Source: Physcia stellaris
Lineage: Eukaryota > Ascomycota > Lecanoromycetes > Caliciales > Physciaceae
Length of the DNA stretch: 64,000 nt
Direction of reading: 5' to 3'
NCBI GenBank assembly: GCA_018902385.1
Contig: JABSSW010000032.1
Location: 420,509-484,508 of the forward strand
The notes under the pieces were generated by a model that was given only the letters and a program-made list of their open reading frames with translations, searched no databases and was not told the DNA's origin. Both the position numbers and the translations under genes were made by a program. Of the stretch, positions 7,988 to 64,000 are shown one piece after another. Position 1 is the first letter of the stretch. Every line of letters begins with the position of its first letter.

Positions 7988-10394
7988 CTAGTACCATCCA
8001 GATCCAAAGCTACCACATCTGTTACCCGCGCTGATCCCCACGTTGGCCTTGAGGCAGTCACTATATTGGTTCGAGCACTTGCTCTTCGCGCTGTCGTAGC
8101 TGTCTTGGTTATTACTCTGCGATTGTCCCTTGCACCCGGTGGCATACGTGCCAACACAGGCATTGTACTGCACTTGGCAAGCATCTTTGCACGCCTGGGG
8201 TACATCAGGTTTGCCGTACCCGGAGCATCGCGTAGTGTCTTTGTCCGTGTACAGCTTGAAAGGATATTTGGGGAAAGTGGAAAGTAAGTTGTTGCATGTC
8301 AATGCTGGCGGTTGGATGCCACCAACACACGCGCCATTGGCATAGCCAGAGTTGGGTCCGCCCTTTGGAAGGACACAGACGCTGGAGACAGTAGGGATGG
8401 GGGTAGTCGACGAAGTGACCGTTGTGGTAGTAGCCGTACAGACGCCGGCCGTCGTCGTAGGAGTGACTACTACAGGGGGATTCTTGTTGATACAGTCGTT
8501 CTTGCTGCAGCCTTTGCCAACGCAGGTGCTGCTGCAATACTGGCTAATGTCGGAGCACCAAGATTGATATTTGGCGCACTGGAGCGAGGCGGGCCAGCCG
8601 GCCGTGAGAAAGCAGTCGGCGATTTGAAGGATACATTCGGCAACCGCCATCTTACAAGATGGGTTGTCCAGCCAGGTCGGAAGGGGTTTTGAGCACCACC
8701 TCCCGCAGGAGTATTCGCACGTAGGAGCGGGTGCGACAGCGGTGCATTTAGTCGTTGTAGAGGATAAAGTTGTAGACACGCTCGCAGTTGTAGATTTGCT
8801 GCTTGTGGTACTTGATGTTGAGAATTTAGAGCTACTGCTAGAAGTGCTGGAAGTGCTAGAGGTCGACGATCTGCTACTCATGCTCGAGGTGGTCGAAGAC
8901 AGGCACGTAGAGCTTGTGCTTGAAGTGCTGGGCGTCGAGGATATGGAGCTTGCGCTGATTATGGTTGAAGAAGAGGACGACGAACTGGTAGTCCCGGTGC
9001 TAGGAATTGAGGAAGTGGAGCTGGTGCTTGAAGTGCTCGAGAATACGGAGCTTGAGCTGGTTATGCTTGAAGAAGAGGACGAAGAACTGGTAGCCCCCGC
9101 GCTGGAAGTTGAGGAAGCGAAGATTGTGCTTGATGTATCGGAGGTTGGGGTGGTGAGGGCTGTGCTTTGCGTACTTAATGTCGATGAGATGGGGATAATC
9201 GAGCTTGAAGCCGCGGCGATGCTGCTGGTAGGCGTGCTTGAGGTTGGGGATTCGGAGCTTGAAGCCGATGTATTAGAGGTTAGTGAAGCGCTACTGGTTG
9301 AGCTTGAGGCCGCATCAGTGCTAATGGTACTGGATGTGGTTGGGGCTGAAGAGTGAGAGCTTGTAGGTTCTGCGCTTGATGTTGATGATGTACTGCTTGC
9401 GGAATCTGTGCTTGAAATTGACGAAGGACTGCTTGTCGAGCTTGAAACGGCAGCGGTGCTACTTGAATTCGGAGTGGAGGCGGCGGTACTAGAGGAACTT
9501 GAAGTCGAACTGGGACTGCTTATGTTAGAGGTACTCGAAATCGTTGATACGGATTGGGTGGGCACAATTGGTGGAGGTAATTCGAAAGGCGTGCAGGGCT
9601 CAGAGGACATAAGGTCGCTCGCAACATAAAGGTTTAAGCGAGATCGTCCACCACAGATCTGACTCTTGTCGCCGTTGCAAGGCAACTTACAGTCACTGCT
9701 CGGAGCGGACGCGGTTCCGTTACCCAGAACTACACCACAGTAGCACTCGGAACCATATTCAGTCGCTGCCAGTGGATAATTTTGGCTTTTGCAAGCACTC
9801 AGACATGCTTCAGTCGTGAGGGTGGCCCCACTCAACTGACTTTGTCTGTTTACCACTGCACGACCATATGCGCTGTTGTCGGTGTAGCAGCCTTGAGGGG
9901 TGTAGTCGGAGATGTCATTGGCGTTGGTTTCAGGAAAGGTTGGGTCGGCGTATATTGATAACTTGTTGCTTCCTCCACAAACCTCGCTCTTATCGCCATT
10001 ACATGGGAAAGTACACTGGTCTGTTCCGAGATCCGGGCCTGTGACTGAATCCCCACAGTAACACTCGCCATAGTACTCCAGGCCAGCGTAGCGATAGCCA
10101 TTCCCTATGAGCAATCAGCCGTGCTCTTTCGAAGTTACAGGCATCCCTTACCTTTACACACAGCAACGCATGTCTCCACTGTCATATTCTTGTACACCTG
10201 CCCGGCAGGGCCAAATGGAAGTGTCCGTGGAGATCCATTCTCGCCGTAGCAGCCTACATATGAGAAGTGTGTGAAAGGGACACTGCATGCTGGTAGAGTA
10301 TATTCGTTTGTGCGCTTGACAAAGGATGCCACAGTAGGAGAAAAGAGGGAAGTGCTATAGAAGCAAGAAAGAAAGTGTTAATGAGCGAAGCCAT
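7988..10394 (-). CDS. WSC-domain, Ser/Thr-rich cell-surface protein
   Basis: Minus-strand gene. The last exon is 10104-7988; it is joined through a 47-nt intron (10151-10105, GTAAGG...ATAG) to an exon reading FSYVGCYGENGS. The ATG at 10394 begins a good signal peptide (MASLINTFFLASIALPSFLL). Joining it to the WSC frame needs one more short intron near 10,280-10,335; a weak GTGGCA donor with a CATGCAG acceptor works in frame, so the 5' end is tentative. Two WSC domains follow (each about 90 residues, eight Cys, with ECYCG and NGDKS-VCGG / QICGG signatures), then about 300 residues of Ser/Thr stalk, and two Cys-rich regions ending CGSFGSGWY. WSC proteins bind wall carbohydrate or sense wall stress. 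No clear C-terminal membrane span or GPI signal is visible, so a secreted wall protein is likelier than a sensor. About 800 aa. Confidence 0.8.
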
Positions 10395-38635: not shown

Positions 38636-38735
38636 TATCGTCGATTTCGTAAATCTGTGCTGGATCCAGAAAGTGCCGCTAGTCCGCCGAGTCCCCCACC
38701 AAAATCATGGAAAATTCTGGCAAAATGCCATAATT
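38636..38735 (+). repeat. left terminal inverted repeat (100 bp)
   Basis: Begins TATCGTCGATTTCGTAAATC. It is perfectly repeated in reverse at 43078-43177 and keeps a normal base mix with a CCCCC run, unlike the interior. Confidence 0.95.
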
Positions 38736-38854
38736 CCTTCTACTCTTCTATTAAAGCTTTGTAATTTCATTATTGAAGCTCAGTATATCTCGTTTATCTC
38801 GTGTCTTGATGATTGTTTTTCACATTTGACGTTTTGACGTCGTCGTCGCTCATC

Positions 38855-39915
38855 ATGTCGTCGATGTTTTTCACAATCATTCAAAACGAAATACGAAATC
38901 AAATTGTTTTCGATCGTTTTATTCTTCAAATACAAAAATTCATCGACGTCAGTCAAACACAAATCGATAAAATGAGAAAAAATTTGAAAAAATATGAAAC
39001 AATCGTCGTTTCGTTTTCGATACGAGAACGATCGAAAAAAATGATCGAAAAAATGAAGAATTTTTTGCTCGAGTACATTAATTTTCATTCAATCAAATAT
39101 TTGAACGAAATGTGCTGATATGTTTACGATGAATTTGACATCGTCGTCAACGAATTCATTTTGTGTAAAATGTTGAAACGTCGAAAATGAACACACAAGA
39201 AAATGAGCATTTTTTTTTTTTCGTTTTTTTTTACATTGCTTTTTCTGTTTTACAGTTTTCATTGAAATTGATTCGTTCAATAAACGTTTTTTCGTATTTT
39301 ACAACGAAATCAAAATTAACGCGATGTTTGACGTCTGCGACTCTGTGACTGAAAAATTCATCAATTCATGTTTTTGAACGAGACGATCGTTTGCGAACGC
39401 ACTGAAAATCGAAAATACGCATGAACACGACGAGATCGAAAAATCAACGTTGTTACGTTGTTCAAAAGAAATAAAAAATGATTTATACTTTTTGCTTTCA
39501 CGTTGAAAAACTACATCGTTTGAACGATACATCATGATTCTATTACGCAAGAGATTTTCAATGATTTCGTCAAACATCACGTTTTATTTCTCACTACATC
39601 GATCATTTATGAAGACAAGAACTCTGTATTGATTCTGAACAACGTTTCGATTCACAAGTCTGTAAAATTTCAAAAAATGTGCACTGAAATCGACGTGAAG
39701 TTGATTTTTTTATTTTTTTATTCATTTGACTACAATTCAATAAAAATTTCGTTCGCAATTTTCAAAAAATGAATCAAACGACACGATGATTTGATCGAAA
39801 AATACGAATTTGAATTCGAAAATTTCGAACGTTTTTTACACGATGCGATACATGCACAAACTCAACGAGATAATTCAAACAATTTGTTTCGAGTTTCAGA
39901 CATCAGTTTGTGAAA
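38855..39915 (+). pseudogene. decayed Tc1/mariner (DDE) transposase
   Basis: One reading frame (starts congruent to 38855) carries the whole family order: MKNFLLEYINFHSIKYLNEM (helix-turn-helix region), YVYDEFDIVV, KMLKRRK, then the DDE domain with FMFLNET (FLDES in the family), TIHHDSITQEIFNDFV, SVLILNNVSIH (VMDNASIH), VKLIFLFFYSFDYNSI (LPPYSPDLNPIE) and IKRHDDLIEKYEFEFENF. The catalytic triad is lost by G-to-A changes (D to N, D to N, E to K). Eight of nine in-frame stops are TGA, several standing where relatives have Trp. Prolines of the PPYSPD motif are now Phe or Ser. The product cannot be active. Confidence 0.85.
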
Positions 39916-42900
39916 ATTCAAAGCATATGTACTAATAAACTATTCAACAGAAACTATGTCATAAATCGCTAGAAAATCAAATATGAATGCTTTTCGAATG
40001 TTCGAATTGTAAATTCTCGTTGATGTTCTCATTCGTATCATCAAACGAATCATTTTCAAAGTCAACATTCGCGTATTTCAGATTCTCGAAATGAAATGAA
40101 AATGAACGAAATTTATCGTCGAATGAGAAAACGATTTCAAAATTCGAAAAATTCGATTTTTGCAAATGTGAAAATTGAAAAATTTTTTTGATTGATTTGA
40201 ACATTCGTTGAATGAAAAACGAAATTTTCAAATCGAATCACATCGATGAAAATTTCGAATCTGAGAAATTTTGTTTCGTAAATGATCGTATTGATGTCGA
40301 CGACGAATTTCGAATGACAAACAATTCTAAATCAAATATTTGTTAGCGAAAATGTTTTCAATGATGATTAGAACTTTTTTTTGCGAATGCGAAAAAGTTT
40401 CGATTTTGAATTTTTGTGCGACTTTGCGACTGTATTTTACGAATATATTACAACGTTACAGTCAAAACATCAACGATTTCAACGTCAAAAATCGAACGCT
40501 AAAGTGATGATGTTTTGTTACACGTTTTAGCGCTGTTTTGATTTCCGTTCATATCGAAAGTCGCATGAACAAAAAATAAAATGAATGCATTTATTTCGCA
40601 TGTTATCAAACAAATTCGAATTTTCGACGTTTTGTTTGAATTTTAATTCACGTTTTAATCAGATTTTTTCAAAGATTTTCGCATCAATGACAAGTTCGTC
40701 ATCGATGTCAAATTTGATGCTTTGTTGAGTTCATCAAATTTCGACGTTTTTTTTGATTTGTATTTGACGAAAATTGAAATTCTCGTCGATTAAAATTTCA
40801 TTTGTCATTTGATATGCATTTAATTCGCGTTTAGATTCAAAACAGCGATTTTTCTGAATTTTTCACTCAATGAAATTCTGAATTTGCTTTTTCGAATTTT
40901 TTTTCAGCTTGATTGAACTGTTAGATGAATTTTGATAAACAGATTGAGCGTCAAACAACGAAAACATGATTTTTGATCGTGAAATAAAGAAAATATATGA
41001 CAATTTTGAAATTGTCAAGTTTGAAAAAATTGAAAATTTTTCGCGATGATTTCGTTTTCGTTTCTCGTTTCGAAACGATGATTTGTTTCGTTTTCGTTTC
41101 TCGTTTCGAAACGATGATTTATTTCGATGACGACGATGTTTTTCACTGTTTCGATGATTTTTTACATTTTCATCGATATATCGTCGATTTGATTTACGTT
41201 TTGAATGACGTTTGTTATAACGTTTGCTATGATCATGACGAGTATCAAATATCAATTTTTTCAACTTTTTTATTCGACGTTTTCATTGTCGTCTATTTTT
41301 GGCATGTAAATGATTCAAATCGTCAAATTCATTAACGATTTTGCGTTTTAGTTTTGCGAATTTGATTTTTAATTTTTTCACATTGTCAAGCGTTTGTTGT
41401 TTCGATTTTTGCGTTTTATTCATTTCTTTGTGAATCGAGAACTCGATATAGCGATTCAAGATCGTTTTCTTTGATTGTTCGTCGATTTGATCAAATGATT
41501 TTTTATTGTTATAATCATTTGACGTTTTGCGTTTGAATTTTTTTCTATTTTTTTCTGAAAATTTGTTGATAGTAAATTTATTTTTTACAATGACGTTTCG
41601 TCACTCGTTAAAGTCAACAGAAATCAGTTCGTAATGATGATTATTGTATATGTAACATTGATTTTTTTTTCAATTTTTGCACGATTTTTCAGTACATTTG
41701 TATTTCGAAATGAGTTGAGTTTTGAAATCACTCGATTGAATTTTTTTTTTGACTCGATCGATTTTCTCTTTTGCGATTTTTTCGATTTGAAATTGAATTT
41801 TCATTTAAACGACTGACATTTGCACGAGTACAGAAGAAAATTGTTAAAATTCGAATAAAATGTCGTTTTCATTTCTGTGTCATTTTATTACAGTCTGAAC
41901 AGCAAATTTTTTTTTTTTGTTTCAATACGAATTGCGACAAAAACAAAATGTTTCATTTTATATAACGTTTAATCGTAATCGTCGTTTTTTCATTTTTCGT
42001 CTGTTTAAATCACGATAGAGAAATTTCATCGTGCAAATGATAAAATTGACGTTCAACATCATTTGCGTATTTTTTTACAAACTGAAAAATTGTTTTGATT
42101 ACACTCAAATAATTGAGAATTTCGTTTTTTTTGATAACACGAACGAAAATATTGTCGTCGATTTTAATTTTTTCGAAATAAATCGTTCAAATGAAAGTGT
42201 ATTTAATATCGACGAATTGTTTGTTTTCGTTTTCATTATTCAATTGAGTCATCGTTTTTTTTTTTGTGAACGAACAAACGTGAAAAATGTTTCGTCGTTT
42301 TCGAAAAATAATTCAACGAGTTTGTCTAGACTTTTTTTCTTTCGTTGTTTGAATTTTTTTTTTTTTTGTTGAACAATTGCGCGATTTGTAATTGCTTTTG
42401 TTGTTTTGCAATTTGACGTCTAAAAGCAAACATTTTCGAATTTTTTTTTTTTTGCGTGTTTTTTTTTTTTTGTTCGTTTTCGACAAACGTTTTCGAGAAA
42501 ACGTTTGCAATGATCGCGTTTTTTTGATTCAAAGATTTTTGCACAGATTTCTGTACATCACTTTCGCAATCGTCGATATCGAAAAAAAAAAAAAAATCGC
42601 GAATTTCGATTTCGCGTTGATTTGTTTGAATTGCGATATTTTTTTCGACGACGTTTTTTTGACGAAAAATTTCATTTTTTTTTGATTTTTGACAGTTTTT
42701 TCGTTTTTTCGAACTTGTACGAGAGTTTGACTAGATGTTCGATGACGTTTTGTCATGACGACGAAACGAAAAAAGACAATAGAATTACAGAAAACGACGA
42801 GAAAATATCAAAAAAATAGAAAATGTTCGAAACATCAAAAGCAACAATATCACAATCACGAAATCAAAATCGAGTTGCGCAAAAAATAGAAATGTAACAT

Positions 42901-43077
42901 TGATGCAATTTCATTATGTGCGCTCGTTTGATTTCTCATTTGATGCATTATGCATCAAAACAGTGACACGTCACGCGTTACTCGCGAATTGATCAATGAG
43001 AAGAAAATCTACATCAAAAATCACAATTAAACGAGATATATTGAACTTCAATTGGCCTGCAATTGGCCGTGATTGGC
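39916..43077. other. unexplained 3.1-kb right half of the transposon interior
   Basis: No DDE motif. Minus-strand frames have Lys/Arg/Ser-rich composition (40,863-41,264: KRYNKRHSKRKSNRR, EKRKRN twice; 42,313-42,760: KKKKTRKKKK), and other frames are Phe-rich owing to T runs. A 36-bp direct repeat (41050-41085 and 41086-41121, 35/36) encodes the duplicated NKSSFRNEKRKR. This could be a second transposon gene, a captured gene or an older nested element; hypermutation hides which. Confidence 0.5.
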
Positions 43078-43177
43078 AATTATGGCATTTTGCCAGAATT
43101 TTCCATGATTTTGGTGGGGGACTCGGCGGACTAGCGGCACTTTCTGGATCCAGCACAGATTTACGAAATCGACGATA
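43078..43177 (-). repeat. right terminal inverted repeat (100 bp)
   Basis: Exact reverse complement of 38636-38735. It ends 113 bp before the ATG of the MYND gene. Confidence 0.95.
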
Positions 43178-43290: not shown

Positions 43291-44002
43291 ATGGCAACCA
43301 TCCTCGACCCAAAGTGCGCCGTCTGCGCCTCGGAGGAGTCCATCAGGAAATGCGCTCGCTGCCGCAATATCCAATACTGCTCCCCCGCTGCCAACGCGCG
43401 GACTGGCGCGCCCACAAGTCCACCTGCCACACGCCCCAAGTCTGGTACGACGCCCATCGCCGCTGCGAGGACGGCGCCAACCACGAAGGACGACTGGAAC
43501 TCATCACGTGGCCATCGTTAGCTGCAGATACGGGGGACGAAGAAGATCTAGGCTGGGGCGCGTGCTTTGCGGAGGAGAGTGAAGATTTGAAACATAAGTT
43601 TGAGACGGAGTACGAGGGGGATGAGGAGAAGTGGTATCACTACTGGCCCCAGGGGTTTAGGTGGACGTGCTGTGGAACGGCGGGTGATCAGATGTTTGGG
43701 TGTGATCATCATGGCTCCGGGTCGAGGGCTTGTACTTGTGATTTCTGCCATGTGAGTTCACCCTTTATATTAGGTCAAGAGATTGTGCCTTGCCTACTGT
43801 CGTTGCACTGGCTTGCTGACTGGGGGCCGGACAGATGGGGAAGCCATTGCCAGATGATATCTATAGCAAGACAGTGAGGTCTCCCTCGGCGAAGGGGCTG
43901 AAGTTGCTGAAAGGTCCGGATCCTAGGTCTTTCAATCCAGCGAAAGCAGGCGTAGCGGCGATGGCGAGGGGCATCATCGGTATGGATCGATCTGGCCTCT
44001 GA
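43291..44002 (+). CDS. MYND zinc-finger protein, one apparent 1-base deletion
   Basis: Exon 1, 43291-43751, and exon 2, 43835-44002, with an 83-nt intron (GTGAGT...GACAG). It opens MATILDPKCAVCASEESIRK then CARCRNIQYCS, the first half of a MYND finger (CxxC...CxxC...YCS). The second half (RCQRADWRAHKSTCH) lies in the next frame, joined if the C5 run at 43382-43386 were C6. With that base the protein is 209 aa and the C6HC metal set is complete. The middle is acidic (EEDLGWGACFAEESEDLKHK) with another Cys/His cluster (CCGTAGDQMFGCDHHGSG...CTCDFCH). MYND fingers bind proline-rich partners. The gene lies just downstream of the transposon end. Confidence 0.75.
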
Positions 44003-49451: not shown

Positions 49452-49798
49452 TAGAGGTATTCAGATATCTCTTTTTGAGACACATATGGGCCCATAAGCC
49501 CATAAGTGGACCCCTGTTATGTGCCAAGAAATGTGCTTATGGGCCCATAAGCACATATGTGAAAAAGTGTCTCCGGGGTTACTTTTTCACATATGTGCCA
49601 CATATGTGAACTCATAATCACATAATGAAGCTCATAAAGTGGGGTTTTTGCCAAGAAATCATTATGGGTCGCTAAATGACATGATTCGAGCACTTGGGGG
49701 TTTCAGATATCTTATGACCCATATGGGCCATATGGGCCATAATGGGCCATATGGACTTATGGGCCGAGTTTTGCAAAATAGATATCTGAATACCCCTA
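49452..49798. mobile_element. MITE, about 343 bp, TA-flanked
   Basis: A 17-bp terminal inverted repeat GRGGTATTCAGATATCT lies at 49454-49470 and in reverse at 49780-49796, with one purine difference, and TA on both outer sides (49452-53, 49797-98), as for Tc1/mariner-type MITEs. The inside is built of palindromes: a perfect 26-bp one at 49531-49556 (centre GGGCCC), CACATATGTG units near 49,555-49,610, and tandem ATATGGGCC units near 49,715-49,760. No coding capacity. Confidence 0.75.
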
Positions 49799-55990: not shown

Positions 55991-58900
55991 TCACTCGCGC
56001 TCCTTCTCCTCCATTTGTTCGATCACTAGTCTCAACTCCTCCACAATCTCGCTCACAAATTCCCTTACCTGGGCCTCATCCATGACGCCTGCATCGCATC
56101 TGACGCCGATATCAATTGCGTCCCCAGACCCATCTCGACTGATATCCAGAAATAGATTTTCGTCAGCTAAAAAGCTGGTATCCAGTGCGTCGACTGCCGT
56201 CTTTGCCGGAGCGATTTCATCTTTCGGCAGTAGGAAGTCGGAAGAAGAACCAAGGTGGCAGGGTGTGAACAGGTCCTTTTCTCCTGTAGATTTGGGTGTC
56301 GGAGCGTCCTGCCAGAGAATGTTGGCGTAGCAGTTGAACAACGGTCCTTCATCCACCATTCCGTTGCCGTCCTCCTCATCCCTGATGAACCTAAGTACAT
56401 CCCTCAATGAACTCTGCTCAAATGCCACCCGTTCCGCCAAGTCATCTTGGAGTGCCCTTGCTGCATCTATCGGCTTCATAGATAGCACATCGGGTACCTG
56501 CAGTGGCGTCACGTTTAACAGCGGGGCACAAATCCGATCCACGCCGTCGAAACCAGACGAGCGCCCTGTTTGGAAGAGACCAACTGTCGGAGATGTTTCA
56601 TTTTTATGTTGGGCGAGGACACGGACGTAGGCGAGAAGAATGATTGTGGGAAGGCGCAGGGAGAGGACGCGTGTACTGGCCTCGAGGGTGGAGAGATAAG
56701 GGACTGCGGCTCTGAGAAGGAGAGATGTAGGAGTGGAATTGGCGGCTGGAGAGGTGGTGGTAAGGGAGCGAAGGATTGTGGGTTTGGTATTGGGGAGGCT
56801 TTTGAGCCAGAACGCTTTTCGGGAGGGTGTAGTTTGGGTGTGGGTGGTGTGTGAGATAAAGTGGCGAAGGGCTGGTAAGGTGGGAGGGGACACTTTTTGG
56901 TAGAGAAGTTCTAAGTCGTGGATGAGGGTTTCGATTGTCGAGACGTCGTAGAGGGAATGATGTATTTTGAGTAAGATGTGGTCTTTACTTGATCCTTGGA
57001 CTAGGGTCAATCTTGCTGGTACAGTGAAGAGGTCGAATGGCTCCCTGGTTGATTTCTTGACAAGATCTAGCGTTTTGTCTTCCAAAGGGTCTGGCACGTC
57101 TAGAGTGCGTAATGCATTATCAGAGGACGAGGACTGGTTGAGCACGAGTTGTATAACTTCTTGTTCCGACACGGCCACAAGACACGTCCGCAAGATCGGT
57201 CTTTGGTCTCTTAGCCTGGTCCATGCAAGCCTTAGCTTGTCAACATCTATCTTTTGGGAGCAGCGGTAGCTAAACGTTGCCTCACAGATGGTTCGAGAGG
57301 ACTTGAGCCACATAGCAAGGTGATAGATCTGACCACTTAGACAAGGCAATACATCCTCCACCAATTCACCTGGAACATCAATGATCTCCAAAGCCCTCAA
57401 TTTTGATTTTTCACTGACAAGCGTGCCTGAACTGGTGGGTGGGACAGTTGGCTCAACGCTTTTAGCTCGCAGTCTTCTGCATATGCCAGCTAATGTTTGC
57501 CCCTGAAGTACGTCTGCAACACCAGTATTCAACCCCTTTTTCCGGCACAGGGAAGCAACTTGAATAGTAGCGATGGAATCGAGGCCTAGTGCGAAGATAC
57601 TTGTGCTCTGTTGGATGCTATCCGATGACATTCCAGAAACTTCAGAGAGAACGCTTCGCAGGCCATCAAGATCTGAGCCTGGTGAGATATCTTCTTGTAC
57701 GCTGGTTTCGCCCTTGTCGCCGACTCTGGCACAGATGTGTGTCTTATTCTTGAAGGAACTGGGGAACGCTAGAAGGCTTTCATGGGAGTTCTGGATCACG
57801 TCGACGAAGATGTCCTGAAAGCTTGCCAGCCAGTCTGAGACATATTTTCGACTCTGGCGAGCGATCATACGTATGAGGATCCTGTCGTCCGTTTGCTCGA
57901 ATTCAAAATTGCTAGAGTATTCAGTAGGTGCAGCAACACTGTCTATGTTTAAATGTTCCATCATTATCGGCCTCTCCTCGCCTTCCTTGGTGGTTCTCTG
58001 GAACACAAAAAGATTATCAAACAATCGTCCAACTGTATCACCGGACTTTTGCCGCCACATCTGCTGGACCTTTCCGAGCGAAGCATGGTGATAAGCCAGT
58101 GATTCTCCGGAGAAGCGTTGAATACCGTCGAGAGAGTCGCTTATCGTAATATTCGCTTTGTTAAATTTGAGACGGAAAGGGACAGTATTGAACAGTGGTC
58201 CCACGATGTCCTCTGCTGCCGGTACTCCAAGGGATCTGCCTCCAACCAAGTGTCCGAAGACTATGTCATGCGTTTTCAATATATAAGCAAGAGTTTTACC
58301 ATACGCGAGGAGCGCAGCTGTTTGGAGAGTCACGCCAAGCTCTTTACATCTCCGAAGAATGGCCTGGGAGTCCATTGCAATGGTAGTCTCGACTTCGACA
58401 CTGGCAATTCCAGCGGGCTCGGAGTCTTGAGGTACCATGGTGTTCTCAAAATCGTCTAATTGCTTGGCCCAGAAAGCCTCCGCCTCGGTACTGCTGCTAG
58501 AAATCTCACGAGCTGCTGAGCTGAATGGGGGACGTTGTATACACAGATCGTTCCGGTAGACACGCGCAAAGTCGTTGATCAGAAGCTTCATCGACTCGCC
58601 ATCGTATAAACTATGATGGATGGAAAGGACGAAAACAGTCTCAGAAGGAGACTTGAGTATAGTCACCCTCCAGGGCTGGGTATCAAAGTCTGTATCCTCG
58701 CGGAACGAGAACCGGTCAATGACTTCCGACCAAAGATTTGATATCGATGTGTTGTCGGTCACTGTAGTCCATGAGTCGCTGTACTTAAGAGGCTTGTCAT
58801 GAACAGTGGCCCTCCAAATGCTCTGGTTCTTAGAAAAGTGGAATGTGCTCCTGAGTATCTCCGTCTGCTGGACAAGCGTTGCCCATGAACGCTTCAGTCT

Positions 58901-61900
58901 GTCGACAAAAATACTGCTCGACAAGCGGAAAGCATGATGGTTTGCGTACAGTTTACCATCTGAGCCCAGGGTTTGTGTCAACATGGATGACTGCAGAGGC
59001 GTGCAGAGATACGTAGCTGGGTCTGAGTTATCGGGACTTCTAGTGGACCCATGCACGGATGACTCTCCTGCCCGAACGGTGCCCTCGTGGGTGCCATCTA
59101 TTTGCACTGGTGGTCGAGCGTTGATGTGTTGCGTAAGTGCTGCTATAGATGGGTAGCGCATAACGTCAGCAGAAGAGCATTGCATCCCTGCTTGTCTTAG
59201 CTCTCGTGCAAACCGAATGGCAATGATAGAATCTATCCCAAGACTAAAGAAGGATGCCCTCCTTGAGATGTCTGATTCCTTAATATCACAGATTATGGAT
59301 ACAGTATCTTTGACCTGCTGCTCTTCAGTACTTTCTGGTATATCGTCTAAAGGTGGCGCTCCCAACGCAGACTTGGCATTGGCAATATGTGAGTCTCTTG
59401 GTAATATCGAAGATAAGTCTTCTCGGCTTATCAACGCTGCTAGTAATTTGTCCATCTGCTTGATGAAAGCCTCCGCTCTATCGGAATTCCCAAAGGCTGA
59501 TGTGTAATTGCAATTAGCTACAAGCTCATCTTTCCTAAGGTCTGCTTGAACCTCCATAGCGAAGGGGAATTCGGCAGGCATAGAACTTTCATTTTCAGTC
59601 CAGAGATCTGATTGATCAGATGTCTCAAGCTTGCGGATATACGAGAAGAGACATTGGAACAGAGGTTTGTCAGCCCCCGCCCATCGATGGATGTCCCTTA
59701 GTGCTGTGTGCTGGAAATCTAATGATCTCGTAAATCCATGTTGGGCATTGGCAATGGCATCGATAAAGCTTGAGTGAACAGAGCGCAGTATTACCCGCTG
59801 TGGAATAGTTGTTGTGCATGGCGCTAAGATTGTATCAGGGTTCTCTATGGGTACAGTCCGTCCTGAAAGTACTGTGCCGAATACGATATCAGATATTTCT
59901 AGAGTCTGTGCTAAGCAGATGCCGAATACAGCTTGTATAACGGAGGCTGCTGTACAATTGAAAGAGGATGCGAGATCAGTCACCTCTGATAATTTGCTTG
60001 CGAGCTGAACTTCTAATGACATAGCCGCAATGGTATTTTCGTTGCCAGCTCCGCGTATACTTGCAGATGGGTTGTAACCGGCTAAATAGTCCATCCAGAA
60101 CTTTCTGGATTTATTCAAGTCCTGAGCAGATACGTGTTCCAGCAGCCTGCTGAAAGGTGTACGTAGCAATGGAGAGCTAGTAGACGTATACCGTCTGTGG
60201 ACCTCTTCAAGCAGCATTCGCAGTGATTCGCCATCGTACAAAGCATGGTGAATGGATAAAAGAAGGGTAGAGTTTTTATTACTAGTGAGAGATTTGACCA
60301 AAACCAGTCTGAGCGGCGCCTCCGTCGAGATGTTAGAGATAATGTCTTTTGAAAGCTGGCTTCTGTACGATGCCACGTCCGACGTGGAGTGTTCAACTAT
60401 TTTCCAGTAATTTGAAGAGCGAATGCCATCAAGCCTCAGAACAATTTGAACGAAGCGATTCTCGAATTCCAGGAAACACGTCCTCAGGATTTCTTGGTCG
60501 GCTATAATACTCTCCCAGGCTTTGAAGAGACGGGTAGGATCGATATCATCCGAAAGGTTGAAGCTAATGTGGTTGACATAGAGCGGATTATCACTTTCAC
60601 CGAGTGAACTTGCTACAAGACTTTCTTGTAAGGGAAGACAAGGTCGTATAGCAGATATGGAAGAATCGTCAAGGGCATGTGGACTGGCACGAAACCTGGC
60701 TTCAAGCTTTGCTATATCGTTACGAGCTTCCTCGTATTTGAATAGTGAATCATCAGTCCGAGAATTGCGTGGCATAGCTGCTAGGCTTGAAAGATTCGAG
60801 TTATTCAAGATGTCTGTTACAGAGCAAACGTAGCCTAGCTTTTGTAACCGGATCGCTAGACTGATGGCTCCAAGACTATCAAGTCCACACTGAAAGAGGT
60901 TCGAGTCATGCGACAAGCCCGATCTTGGCACACCCAATGTCTTTGAAATGACGTCTTGGACTGCCCTCTCCGCTGTGGATAGCTCATTCTTAGGGGCCTC
61001 TGTTCCATTAGACATGCCTTGTGAACTGTGCGACATGATCCTAGCCAACGGTATATCGGAGAACAGAGCTTTGAGTTTCTTAACGTCGGCTTTGCCCGAC
61101 GATGGCGCGATAGGAATGGCCGTAAGAAGAGCCACAACGTCCGGTACCATATAGGTAGGTAATTTTTCTTGGCAGTGGGCGCGAATGCTGGCTCCCAGGT
61201 GTCGCTCATCAGGAGAATCGAGAATATCGAGAGAGTCTTGAGGGTGACTGAAATATCGGTCAGGCACTACGAAAGTGACAAGCTGTGGCCTCGAAGACTC
61301 TGAATGCTGGATAACGAGAGTTGCGACATTTGGATTTGGCAGATCTAGTTCCTTCGTGGCAAAATTGTGGATCACTCCAGAGACCTCTCCAAGCTCAAGT
61401 CGCTGCCCTCTGATCTTGGTTTGATCATCCTGACGACCAATGAACTCGACAGAGTCATCTGCCATCAGTCGGACGATGTCGCCTGTGCGGTACATCCTCG
61501 AGCCATGAAAATCTTCGATAAAGCCCTTGGTGTCAGGCCGATTGTGATATCCATTCGCGACCAAATCCCCAGTCATACAAAGCTCCCCAGGAATACCTCG
61601 CATAGTAGGTGTGTTGGTTCCAGGATTAAGAATATGTGCTACACTGTTCCCAAAAGGACGACCCACGTTCCTTGCATTTGATCTTTGGGTGACCTCCACG
61701 GCGCAACATCCAATTGACAATTCAGTTGGCCCATATGGATTAACGATGCAGACATTTTTGTTTGATGCCCAGATATCGATTACCATTTGCGACATTTTCT
61801 CCCCTCCGATACCCAGGTAACGGAGTCCAGGAAGTTTGTCAGGATCCAAGCCAGCATGTTCAATTAAAGACGGCACAAAGCTGGCATGAGTGATCTTAAG

Positions 61901-64000
61901 CTTGCGTAAAGCCGTCTCAAGATCATCTAGTAAGACAGCCCTAGGGGCTGTAACTACAGCCATTCCACGGCGCCACGCAAGAAATGTTTCCGCAAGGTGG
62001 ACATCAAAAGCTCGACTGGCAAGCCCAAGATATCGTCCCTGTCCAGGAAGCCTCCCAAAGTCTGGTGTGAGGGGCCATATGTATTCTGAAAGGCCTTCAA
62101 CAAAGGAAGAAAGATTCCCACGACCCACGAGGACGCCTTTAGGAGCTCCGGTAGATCCAGAAGTGTACAGTAAATATGCATTTTCTTCACGATGCAAGGG
62201 CGGAGAAGGATTTGATGGTATATCATCGAGCGCGTCATCTAAAATATTCTCGTGGTCGATAAGTACCACACGGCTCCTAGAGGAGCTATTTGGGAACTCT
62301 GATGCTAATTGGCTTATTGTGATTAGAACCGTAGCTGCACTATCCTCTAATAAGAAGGTTTTGCGCTCCTTGGGTAAAGATTGGTCAATGGGTAGGTAAG
62401 TATTGCCTGACTTCAATATACCCAACATTACAGCGTACGCTTCAAGCCGATGATCAAGGCACATTGCGATCATGTCACCCCTACGATTATCTCGATGCAG
62501 GAAAGCTGCAACCCGGTTGGACTTTTCACACAACTGACGAAAAGTCCATGTATCGCCAGTTGACTCCGCATCTTCCAGCGAGTGTATGCTCTTCGCCGCG
62601 AGCCAATCTGGATGTTCAGTAGCGAAGTGGTCTACCCAGTGGACAGGGTCTCGATGTGGAGCTAAAGCCACTGCTTCGCTTGGAACCACGGAGCTGATAG
62701 AGAGCAAATGCTTTGGTAACTTAGATGTGATATCTTTAGCTGGTATATCTGGCCACTTGATCATAGCATCGACCACTGCCTCTACCTGTCGAGCGAGAAG
62801 CATCGCGTGACTCTGGCTCATGACCGTTTCGCTAGCAGCGATTTCCAGATGAAGGTTACCATTTGGTAGCTGCAGCACATTGAGAGCTACGGGATGTTCG
62901 ACGGTGAGCTTTGTTAGATCGTCCAATTTCCTCCATGGCTGACTTGCTTCGCCGTCGTTCTCTTGGGATATCTCAGGGAGGTAATTGAAGATCGCAGGAT
63001 AAAGCACTGCGTCTTGAGGCCGTTGTAGGATTTTTCGGATAGTTCGTGGATGAACTGACCTGTGCTCCCTGGACTGTGACTGTAACTTTGATTGAGCGAC
63101 AAGCAACTCGCGAATTGACCCGCGTGCTTTAAAAGGAACGGGCATTACGTTGATGAAAGGTCCAATGGTGTCTTGCAACGCGGGGAATTTGATGCGGTCG
63201 GAGTTGGTCTCTCCAAAGACTAATGACTCGGCTTCCAGATACTCTAGTAATACAAGGCCCCAAGCAAGTCTAAATAGGGACGCAACCGATGACGCTCCCA
63301 AGCTCATCGCGGTACTTCTGAGATCCTCATACGGTGTGCTTACTTGTTTGGTTTGCGTTGTAAACCCGGTATTCCCAACTCTTTCGATGGCCCTCTTACC
63401 TGTCAAATCAGGCCACGCATTGGTCTCTTGATCAGCATGTTCATTGATCACTGAAGACCAATATTTCTCGTCTTCATCTATTTGATGGTTTGTTGGGAGT
63501 AGTACCTCAAGGGCTTGAGTAAGTTGATGTCGTTGTATAATATTCCCATCCCCACCATGGTAGGCGTGGTAAACATCTGTCAGGATATGATCAAGAGATG
63601 GCTCATCTCGAATCGCATGGTGTATGGAAACAATCATCTCGTAATGATCCGGTTGTTCAAGGATAGTAATGGCCCACAGAGGATTGCGGAAGTGAGTATC
63701 CTGGTGCTTCTTGATTAACTCTTTGACTCGCTGGCCCGCTTGATCTTCAACACTTGTTTCTCCTGAGTGAATAGTCTCCCAATCCAGAAGTGGTTGTTTG
63801 TAAATGAGCTGCAGGAAAGCGTCTTTCGGAGAAGAAGTACTATCCACATCCTGCGCACATTCGGCAAGAGGAATGAAAGCACTCCGCAAGGCCTCCGTAT
63901 TGCTTGCAACCCGCAACCACGCAATGCGCATTCGTTGGAGGTCAATGTTAGTATCAAGGTCGAAGACGGCATTGCTCCAGTAGGCGTTGGGATCTTTCAT
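55991..64000 (-). CDS. nonribosomal peptide synthetase, ferrichrome (SidC/NPS2)-type C-terminal part; N-terminus beyond window
   Basis: One uninterrupted minus frame of 2,669 codons enters from beyond 64,000 and ends at 55,991. Residues are numbered from the window edge. C1 about 1-430 (HHAIRDE near 125); adenylation domain about 440-1000 (YTSGSTGAPKG near 611, FDVHLAE, NPYGPTELSIG, YRTGD near 835, PSSGKADVKKL); T1 (FQCGLDSLGAI near 1040); C2 (HHALYDG near 1250); T2 (FSLGIDSIIAI near 1585); C3 (HHSLYDG near 1795); T3 (FALGLDSIATI near 2137); C4 (HHSLYDV near 2347). The A-T-C-T-C-T-C tail is the hallmark of ferrichrome synthetases, where the extra T-C units repeat use of the last A domain on N5-acyl-N5-hydroxyornithine and close the ring. 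No thioesterase is present, as expected. The product, an intracellular or secreted hydroxamate siderophore, is inferred. No ornithine monooxygenase gene lies in the window. Confidence 0.88.
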   Translation of the reverse strand: MKDPNAYWSNAVFDLDTNIDLQRMRIAWLRVASNTEALRSAFIPLAECAQDVDSTSSPKDAFLQLIYKQPLLDWETIHSGETSVEDQAGQRVKELIKKHQDTHFRNPLWAITILEQPDHYEMIVSIHHAIRDEPSLDHILTDVYHAYHGGDGNIIQRHQLTQALEVLLPTNHQIDEDEKYWSSVINEHADQETNAWPDLTGKRAIERVGNTGFTTQTKQVSTPYEDLRSTAMSLGASSVASLFRLAWGLVLLEYLEAESLVFGETNSDRIKFPALQDTIGPFINVMPVPFKARGSIRELLVAQSKLQSQSREHRSVHPRTIRKILQRPQDAVLYPAIFNYLPEISQENDGEASQPWRKLDDLTKLTVEHPVALNVLQLPNGNLHLEIAASETVMSQSHAMLLARQVEAVVDAMIKWPDIPAKDITSKLPKHLLSISSVVPSEAVALAPHRDPVHWVDHFATEHPDWLAAKSIHSLEDAESTGDTWTFRQLCEKSNRVAAFLHRDNRRGDMIAMCLDHRLEAYAVMLGILKSGNTYLPIDQSLPKERKTFLLEDSAATVLITISQLASEFPNSSSRSRVVLIDHENILDDALDDIPSNPSPPLHREENAYLLYTSGSTGAPKGVLVGRGNLSSFVEGLSEYIWPLTPDFGRLPGQGRYLGLASRAFDVHLAETFLAWRRGMAVVTAPRAVLLDDLETALRKLKITHASFVPSLIEHAGLDPDKLPGLRYLGIGGEKMSQMVIDIWASNKNVCIVNPYGPTELSIGCCAVEVTQRSNARNVGRPFGNSVAHILNPGTNTPTMRGIPGELCMTGDLVANGYHNRPDTKGFIEDFHGSRMYRTGDIVRLMADDSVEFIGRQDDQTKIRGQRLELGEVSGVIHNFATKELDLPNPNVATLVIQHSESSRPQLVTFVVPDRYFSHPQDSLDILDSPDERHLGASIRAHCQEKLPTYMVPDVVALLTAIPIAPSSGKADVKKLKALFSDIPLARIMSHSSQGMSNGTEAPKNELSTAERAVQDVISKTLGVPRSGLSHDSNLFQCGLDSLGAISLAIRLQKLGYVCSVTDILNNSNLSSLAAMPRNSRTDDSLFKYEEARNDIAKLEARFRASPHALDDSSISAIRPCLPLQESLVASSLGESDNPLYVNHISFNLSDDIDPTRLFKAWESIIADQEILRTCFLEFENRFVQIVLRLDGIRSSNYWKIVEHSTSDVASYRSQLSKDIISNISTEAPLRLVLVKSLTSNKNSTLLLSIHHALYDGESLRMLLEEVHRRYTSTSSPLLRTPFSRLLEHVSAQDLNKSRKFWMDYLAGYNPSASIRGAGNENTIAAMSLEVQLASKLSEVTDLASSFNCTAASVIQAVFGICLAQTLEISDIVFGTVLSGRTVPIENPDTILAPCTTTIPQRVILRSVHSSFIDAIANAQHGFTRSLDFQHTALRDIHRWAGADKPLFQCLFSYIRKLETSDQSDLWTENESSMPAEFPFAMEVQADLRKDELVANCNYTSAFGNSDRAEAFIKQMDKLLAALISREDLSSILPRDSHIANAKSALGAPPLDDIPESTEEQQVKDTVSIICDIKESDISRRASFFSLGIDSIIAIRFARELRQAGMQCSSADVMRYPSIAALTQHINARPPVQIDGTHEGTVRAGESSVHGSTRSPDNSDPATYLCTPLQSSMLTQTLGSDGKLYANHHAFRLSSSIFVDRLKRSWATLVQQTEILRSTFHFSKNQSIWRATVHDKPLKYSDSWTTVTDNTSISNLWSEVIDRFSFREDTDFDTQPWRVTILKSPSETVFVLSIHHSLYDGESMKLLINDFARVYRNDLCIQRPPFSSAAREISSSSTEAEAFWAKQLDDFENTMVPQDSEPAGIASVEVETTIAMDSQAILRRCKELGVTLQTAALLAYGKTLAYILKTHDIVFGHLVGGRSLGVPAAEDIVGPLFNTVPFRLKFNKANITISDSLDGIQRFSGESLAYHHASLGKVQQMWRQKSGDTVGRLFDNLFVFQRTTKEGEERPIMMEHLNIDSVAAPTEYSSNFEFEQTDDRILIRMIARQSRKYVSDWLASFQDIFVDVIQNSHESLLAFPSSFKNKTHICARVGDKGETSVQEDISPGSDLDGLRSVLSEVSGMSSDSIQQSTSIFALGLDSIATIQVASLCRKKGLNTGVADVLQGQTLAGICRRLRAKSVEPTVPPTSSGTLVSEKSKLRALEIIDVPGELVEDVLPCLSGQIYHLAMWLKSSRTICEATFSYRCSQKIDVDKLRLAWTRLRDQRPILRTCLVAVSEQEVIQLVLNQSSSSDNALRTLDVPDPLEDKTLDLVKKSTREPFDLFTVPARLTLVQGSSKDHILLKIHHSLYDVSTIETLIHDLELLYQKVSPPTLPALRHFISHTTHTQTTPSRKAFWLKSLPNTKPTILRSLTTTSPAANSTPTSLLLRAAVPYLSTLEASTRVLSLRLPTIILLAYVRVLAQHKNETSPTVGLFQTGRSSGFDGVDRICAPLLNVTPLQVPDVLSMKPIDAARALQDDLAERVAFEQSSLRDVLRFIRDEEDGNGMVDEGPLFNCYANILWQDAPTPKSTGEKDLFTPCHLGSSSDFLLPKDEIAPAKTAVDALDTSFLADENLFLDISRDGSGDAIDIGVRCDAGVMDEAQVREFVSEIVEELRLVIEQMEEKERE

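Follow-up and report, generated by a model that had tools for sequence, protein, structure and literature searches.

A Tc1/mariner-like transposon in Physcia stellaris, probably inactivated by RIP-like mutation of cytosines before pyrimidines

The element described here spans 4.54 kb within a 64,000-bp stretch of the genome of the ascomycete Physcia stellaris (assembly GCA_018902385.1, contig JABSSW010000032.1, positions 420,509 to 484,508 of the forward strand; this whole stretch is called the window, and all coordinates refer to it). It is probably a Tc1/mariner transposon that was inactivated nearly to exhaustion by a process resembling repeat-induced point mutation (RIP) and targeting CpY, that is, cytosine followed by a pyrimidine. 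Such a process would act on both strands, converting C that precedes a pyrimidine to T (CpC almost completely, CpT to about two thirds) and sparing CpA and CpG. It would be directed at repeats, and a RID/DIM-2-type cytosine methyltransferase may be responsible; we propose this type of enzyme because the base 3' of the cytosine determines the target, which is how such enzymes choose theirs.

Results

The interior of the element is depleted of CpC and CpT

The dinucleotide composition of the element's interior is unusual beyond doubt. The initial annotation had counted only two CC/GG dinucleotides between 38738 and 43052, at 40545 and 41301, and 13 within each of the 100-bp terminal inverted repeats (TIRs). 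Recounting gave the same numbers, the 13 consisting of 10 CC and three GG. In 200 mononucleotide shuffles of 38740-43050 the mean was 188 CC/GG (range 161-227), compared with the 2 observed. The three longest CC/GG-free runs in the window (1809, 1753 and 756 bp) all lie within the element, and the next measures 75 bp. Thirteen 300-bp segments inside the element (GC content 0.25-0.32) held 0 or 1 CC/GG each. AT-rich DNA free of CC/GG was not found elsewhere in the window: the 12 AT-richest 300-bp segments outside the element carried 16-25 CC/GG each, a close but not exact control, given that these segments overlap and that none of them (GC content 0.36-0.39) is as AT-rich as the interior.

Dinucleotide densities were then compared per kb, on both strands, between 38740-43050 and the rest of the window, and revealed that C was kept before purines and mostly lost before pyrimidines. 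CpC stood at 0.2 in the interior versus 59.6 outside, and CpT was down to one third (21.7 versus 65.3). The corresponding densities were 61.8 versus 67.9 for CpA, 63.3 versus 53.7 for CpG, 77.1 versus 72.4 for TpC, 41.1 versus 46.0 for TpA and 172.9 versus 67.3 for TpT, and GC content was 0.29 versus 0.49 (49% for the window outside the element). GpC was at 0.31 in the interior, as expected if the rule holds on both strands. The 5' neighbour had a small effect: relative to CpA, CpT was retained at about 0.43 where A preceded it, 0.40 where G did and 0.30 where T did. The earlier proposal that a mutational process emptied the interior of CpC is thus well supported as regards a strand-symmetric C-to-T change confined to the interior; it needs widening in that CpT was taken as well. 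As judged by composition, the change is dense, affects both strands and is confined to the element, as in RIP. Its direction, C to T, is given by a protein alignment and by two differences between subterminal arms, both described below. Within the mutated interior, at 41050-41121, lie two 36-bp tandem copies with one differing site, and the same CpT is kept in both.

To describe the spectrum in silico, we applied a CpY rule (conversion to T of CpC at 0.997 and of CpT at 0.67, on both strands) to the rest of the window and compared the product with 38801-43030. The misfit was 7.8, versus 575 without mutation and 431 with one Neurospora-like CpA setting. The rates were derived from the same data, so that the fit tests the sufficiency of the rule and not the rates themselves. 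The Neurospora-like proportions (CpA 0.64, CpT 0.18, CpG 0.13 and CpC 0.05) were fixed and not fitted, which places the two settings on unequal terms; the intact CpA, at 0.91 of its density outside, is a stronger argument against a CpA-type spectrum than the misfit comparison. The rule predicted a GC content of 0.286 (observed 0.294), and its largest residuals, predicted and observed, were 122.9 and 107.1 for AT, 53.7 and 63.8 for CG, 165.1 and 174.1 for AA, and 46.0 and 39.5 for TA. In a grid of 64 settings, run once each and with the best six inspected, the best setting had zero CpA and zero CpG mutation. An index built for this spectrum, (CpC+GpG)/(TpC+GpA), was 0.003 inside the element and 0.78-0.85 outside.

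Ultraviolet (UV) light, APOBEC/AID-type deaminases and deamination of methylated CpG all yield C-to-T changes as well. UV hits TpC as well as CpC and CpT, APOBEC/AID-type deaminases read the 5' base, and methyl-CpG deamination depletes CpG. None of these patterns is seen in the element, where TpC is at 1.07 of its level outside, the 5' base matters little and CpG is at 1.18 of its level outside, leaving an agent of this kind very improbable. A rule set by the 3' neighbour suits an enzyme of the cytosine methyltransferase type better than deaminases that read 5'. Even harder to credit is that no mutation occurred and that the interior is foreign or naturally AT-rich DNA. The low GC content of the interior agrees with such an origin, but CpG reaches 2.89 times its expectation there with CpC at 0.05, and the interior contains a transposase that can still be recognised, although it is altered at the catalytic positions.

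The element retains a degraded transposase and a probable second gene

Read with TGA as Trp, 39320-39961 matches the DDE_3 family (E value 2.5e-15, 57 bits, cut-off 28.6); its match to the IS630 model (2.8e-10, 40.2 bits) is under that model's cut-off of 100. A tblastn search with this piece returned 106 records of IS630 transposases in plasmids, the best at 5e-7 and none covering 80% of the query, and no match was obtained among PDB sequences. The preceding frame, 38765-39280, is probably the N-terminal part of the transposase, as it continues in the same frame; its 172 codons matched no family or helix-turn-helix domain in Pfam or NCBIfam. Other weak family matches of the transposase frames, besides DDE and IS630, had E values of at least 0.0084 and were dismissed as chance.

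We aligned the piece with nine of the 106 IS630 relatives and called a column conserved when it covered seven or more relatives and 70% or more of these agreed. The five conserved P columns read F (3), S (1) and W (1) in the element, and the three conserved G columns read D (2) and A (1). Of three conserved D columns two read N and one D, and of two conserved E columns one reads K and one E. The altered D, D and E columns are presumably the catalytic set, judging from the alignment and the known motif, and the catalytic acids are absent in this copy, being replaced by N, N and K. Other conserved columns differ too, and not only in the C-to-T sense (L to F, K, V, T and L; R to K, T and Q; A to N and V), which we attribute to the distance of the proteins compared. 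The second and third catalytic positions are separated by 34 residues, the spacing of Tc1. From its sequence, the element can be read as a dead member of Tc1/mariner that keeps the catalytic spacing.

Two further long frames lie on the minus strand (Table 1). They probably represent one second gene in two frames, split by an intron or a frameshift. Of 1000 sequences simulated with a Markov model, 11 had a longest TAA- and TAG-free frame of at least 425 codons, and one had a second-longest such frame of at least 400. Searches of Pfam and NCBIfam with these frames gave nothing of note, the single match having an E value of 0.64. By deduction, mutation under the CpY rule would change TGG to TGA and never create TAA or TAG. 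The four frames together contain no Gly, no Pro and no TGG codon.

The mutated tract ends slightly inward of the terminal repeats

As first reported, the TIRs are identical: 38636-38735 and 43078-43177 are complementary at 100 of 100 positions. TA stands on both outer edges of the element, each as part of the identical 100 bp, and the TA at 38636-38637 is a probable target duplication. Beyond this pair, a search of the window for the TIR gave no more than three weak matches (12-22 bp), of which two fell within the element. Exact matching of a TIR 26-mer to viral contigs and of a 22-mer to prokaryote contigs, in which fungal DNA would be contamination at most, returned none. A 17-mer met 10 stretches in viral contigs; all were checked, had 31-41 of 100 TIR positions in common and were taken as chance. 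Scans of such collections carry little weight here.

Apart from its two survivors, the CC/GG-empty run covers 38738-43053; its left limit lies 2 bp inward of the left TIR and its right limit 24 bp inward of the right one. A likelihood change point computed on all dinucleotides fell at 38792 on the left (38758-38812) and at 43054 on the right (43034-43055; ranges within 2 log units). The claim that mutation stops at the repeat edges therefore stands in that the ends are spared, with the correction that by both measures the edges lie slightly inward of the TIRs. At the right end about 124 bp were spared and at the left end 102 to 157 bp (177 at most); some subterminal DNA beyond the TIRs is among them. 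The zone next to the left TIR either was hit more lightly, in the faster target only, or always lacked CC. The subterminal inverted arms differ at 2 of 25 positions, both CpT/ApG transitions, and the left arm retains a CpT and an ApG that are lost from the right, in agreement with the weaker left edge. The 100 bp flanking each end contain 19 and 17 CpY sites, where about 25 would be expected if unmutated and 4 if mutated. The ends were thus spared by the process, and there is no clear leakage into host DNA.

Several explanations were weighed for the spared ends, three of them (conversion, mobilisation in trans and protection) offered by the initial annotation, and part of the probability is assigned to none of them. 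The foremost, which accounts for the same observations and is to be held tentatively when taken alone, is a fourth: that mutation would halt inside the ends where homology to a partner copy halts. In non-tandem ribosomal DNA repeats of S. nodorum, RIP mutation is strongest in the central regions (PMC2621366), which we count in favour of RIP-like mutation of the element. A miniature inverted-repeat transposable element (MITE)-like element elsewhere in the window (Table 1) is not depleted and would fit a length threshold, assuming that it is repeated in the genome.

Gene conversion from an unmutated relative, either an intact or a short non-autonomous copy, is a less likely way in which both ends could have been replaced. 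The spared DNA exceeds the TIRs unequally, by 2 to 77 bp at the left end and 23 to 44 bp at the right, depending on which of the two measures is used; conversion tracts could have this form, and the undepleted MITE-like element suggests that short elements may escape. But events would be required at both ends, and the search for a donor copy in the 64-kb window found none. The donor would have to be unmutated and come from outside, since conversion from TIR to TIR alone could not restore CpC once both are mutated. Equally doubtful is mobilisation in trans, in which an active relative would have moved a copy already mutated but still intact at its ends, with selection for ends that can be bound. 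The TIRs agree at all 100 positions while the subterminal arms differ at two of 25, and TA stands on both edges, as this account would have it. Selection alone, however, would leave unexplained why the 21 CpY sites present in each TIR escaped when more than 99% of CpC was lost a few bases inward; trans mobilisation would still require a spatial limit, i.e. one of the other explanations. Shielding of the ends by a bound protein, the transposase or a host factor, is unlikelier again: the whole of both TIRs falls within the spared pieces, but these also take in subterminal DNA beyond the TIRs, and the transposase that the element itself encodes is altered at its catalytic positions, though supply in trans would be possible.

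Table 1. Features of the element and of a MITE-like element in the window.
Feature	Position	Strand	Description
Element	38636-43177		4.54 kb
Left TIR	38636-38735	+	100 bp; TA at start (38636-38637); 13 CC/GG; not mutated
Left transition zone	38736-38800		CC/GG 1 (expected 7.7); CpT/ApG 12 (expected 8.5), unmutated density
Interior	38738-43053		2 CC/GG; relative to outside, CpC about 0.4%, CpT 33%, CpA 0.91, CpG 1.18
Probable N-terminal transposase frame	38765-39280	+	172 codons; free of stops only if TGA is Trp; 7 TGA; frame shared with 39320-39961
Subterminal inverted arm, left	38772-38796	+	differs from right arm at 2/25
DDE_3 (IS630/Tc1-type) transposase remains	39320-39961	+	7 in-frame TGA; catalytic positions N, N, K
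Second minus-strand frame	40530-41804	-	425 codons; needs TGA read as Trp to be open; 7 TGA; probable second part of the second gene
First minus-strand frame	41644-43008	-	455 codons; needs TGA read as Trp to be open; 13 TGA; probable first part of the second gene
Subterminal inverted arm, right	43028-43052	-	carries both TpT/ApA states
Right subterminal 25 bp	43053-43077		5 CC/GG, still rich
Right TIR	43078-43177	-	100/100 complementary to left TIR; TA at end (43176-43177)
MITE-like element	49456-49794		339 bp; 15-bp perfect inverted ends; palindromic interior; CCATATGGG-type repeats; 47 CC/GG

Genes surrounding the element

A frame at 43296-43400 starts about 120 bp to the right of the element, which may sit in its promoter; its cysteine pattern is one that we take to be MYND zinc finger-like. 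A 193-codon stretch in the neighbouring frame had no match in Pfam. A non-ribosomal peptide synthetase frame of 2669 codons occupies 55991-64000 on the minus strand and runs to the end of the window. It contains four condensation stretches, one adenylation domain and three carrier stretches, and its best match among solved structures is the siderophore synthetase SidN, a fungal enzyme. Ankyrin, MFS, WSC and CorA-type frames are also present in the window, and a tandem repeat of about 102 bp, in two copies (8907-9136), lies inside a long minus-strand frame with WSC domains. Taken together, the gene content of the window resembles a filamentous fungus and, probably, an ascomycete.

Discussion

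The element shares with the IS630-Tc1-mariner group its TA edges, TIRs, DDE_3 transposase and 34-residue spacing; it differs in its length of 4.54 kb, in the probable second gene on the opposite strand and in the dead transposase. Its mutation resembles Neurospora-type, RID-dependent RIP in being dense, two-stranded, C-to-T, confined to a transposon and governed by the 3' neighbour, but here CpC and then CpT are hit and CpA and CpG are untouched. In the CpT-type RIP of Botrytis, Sclerotinia and Magnaporthe, fungi with a RID/Masc1 gene, transposons likewise carry C-to-T changes at CpT, but CpT there accompanies CpA (PMC4352252). Across ten fungal genomes, the same paper gives CpA, CpT and CpG, and not CpC, in its account of the signatures found in more than 10% of copies (PMC4352252). 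The favoured RIP target is CpA or CpT, depending on the family, in C. truncatum (PMC6180176), CpA and CpT in A. anomala (PMC10998396), and CpA, with CpT in some classes, in S. nodorum (PMC2621366); the dominant form in one alignment analysis is CpT/ApG (PMC7882544), and ten MITE families of M. graminicola are described as being without bias (PMC4522978). Monilinia combines classical CpA-type RIP with CpC-to-TpT double mutations (PMC8959702). Cytosine methylation by DIM-2 shares the non-CG character and a preference for CpT, but affects all CpN contexts, and the section describing it names no preference for CpC (PMC13297926).

We found no report of CpC-dominant RIP in the open-licence literature, and the available parts of PMC11105155, PMC5602860, PMC5555474, PMC8959702, PMC9073689, PMC3017866 and PMC7882544 contain no CpC-dominant case; in three of these papers CpC occurs just as the name of a strain or an author. 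The nearest hint is a table for Rhizoctonia solani AG8, in which CpC changes are the commonest of the four contexts (one per 214 bp versus 370-491); the species is a basidiomycete, however, the figures are genome-wide spacings of single-nucleotide polymorphisms, and the authors describe a CpG-biased hypermutation (PMC4014442).

Several points weigh against attributing the element's state to RIP-like mutation. The usual RIP preference for CpA is not seen, CpA being at 0.91 of its level outside. CpA loss and TpA gain are the usual marks of RIP, and the usual indices are negative in the interior, with TpA/ApT at 0.37 and (CpA+TpG)/(ApC+GpT) at 1.22. Set beside the cut-offs used for C. truncatum (above 0.89 and below 1.03, respectively; PMC6180176), both call the interior non-RIP. 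These indices do not register a CpY process because CpA, TpA and TpG barely change. The order in Neurospora is CpA>CpT>CpG>CpC, and CpC comes last in T. reesei too (PMC5496416). RIP is slightly higher toward the ends in the X0 family of S. nodorum (PMC2621366). The sole difference between the 36-bp tandem copies at 41050-41121 is G versus A after T, of the CpA type and not CpY. In-frame TGA is not in excess, at 34 in the four frames versus about 43 expected from composition, so that the case for coding rests on the scarcity of TAA and TAG and on homology; the absence of Gly and Pro codons follows from that of GG and CC and is not independent evidence. Finally, one copy of the element was available, and dependence on repetition is something that we infer.

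With these points taken into account, RIP-like inactivation of a Tc1/mariner transposon remains the probable explanation. We lean, with less assurance, towards its fuller form, a repeat-directed defence whose enzyme would read CpY and not CpA, bring CpC near exhaustion and stop at a sharp boundary short of its target's ends.

If the element started from the composition of its neighbours, its G+C content has dropped by about 40% (from 0.49 to 0.29) through the type of change that RIP makes, and still neither of the usual indices marks it as mutated. The spared ends raise a second question, namely what limits the mutated tract. If CpY-directed mutation is real, other fungal genomes may contain it unnoticed. 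Should it prove genome-wide in this host, it would point to a RID/DIM-2-type enzyme with an inverted choice of target, and the specificity of RIP would become testable by comparing enzymes.

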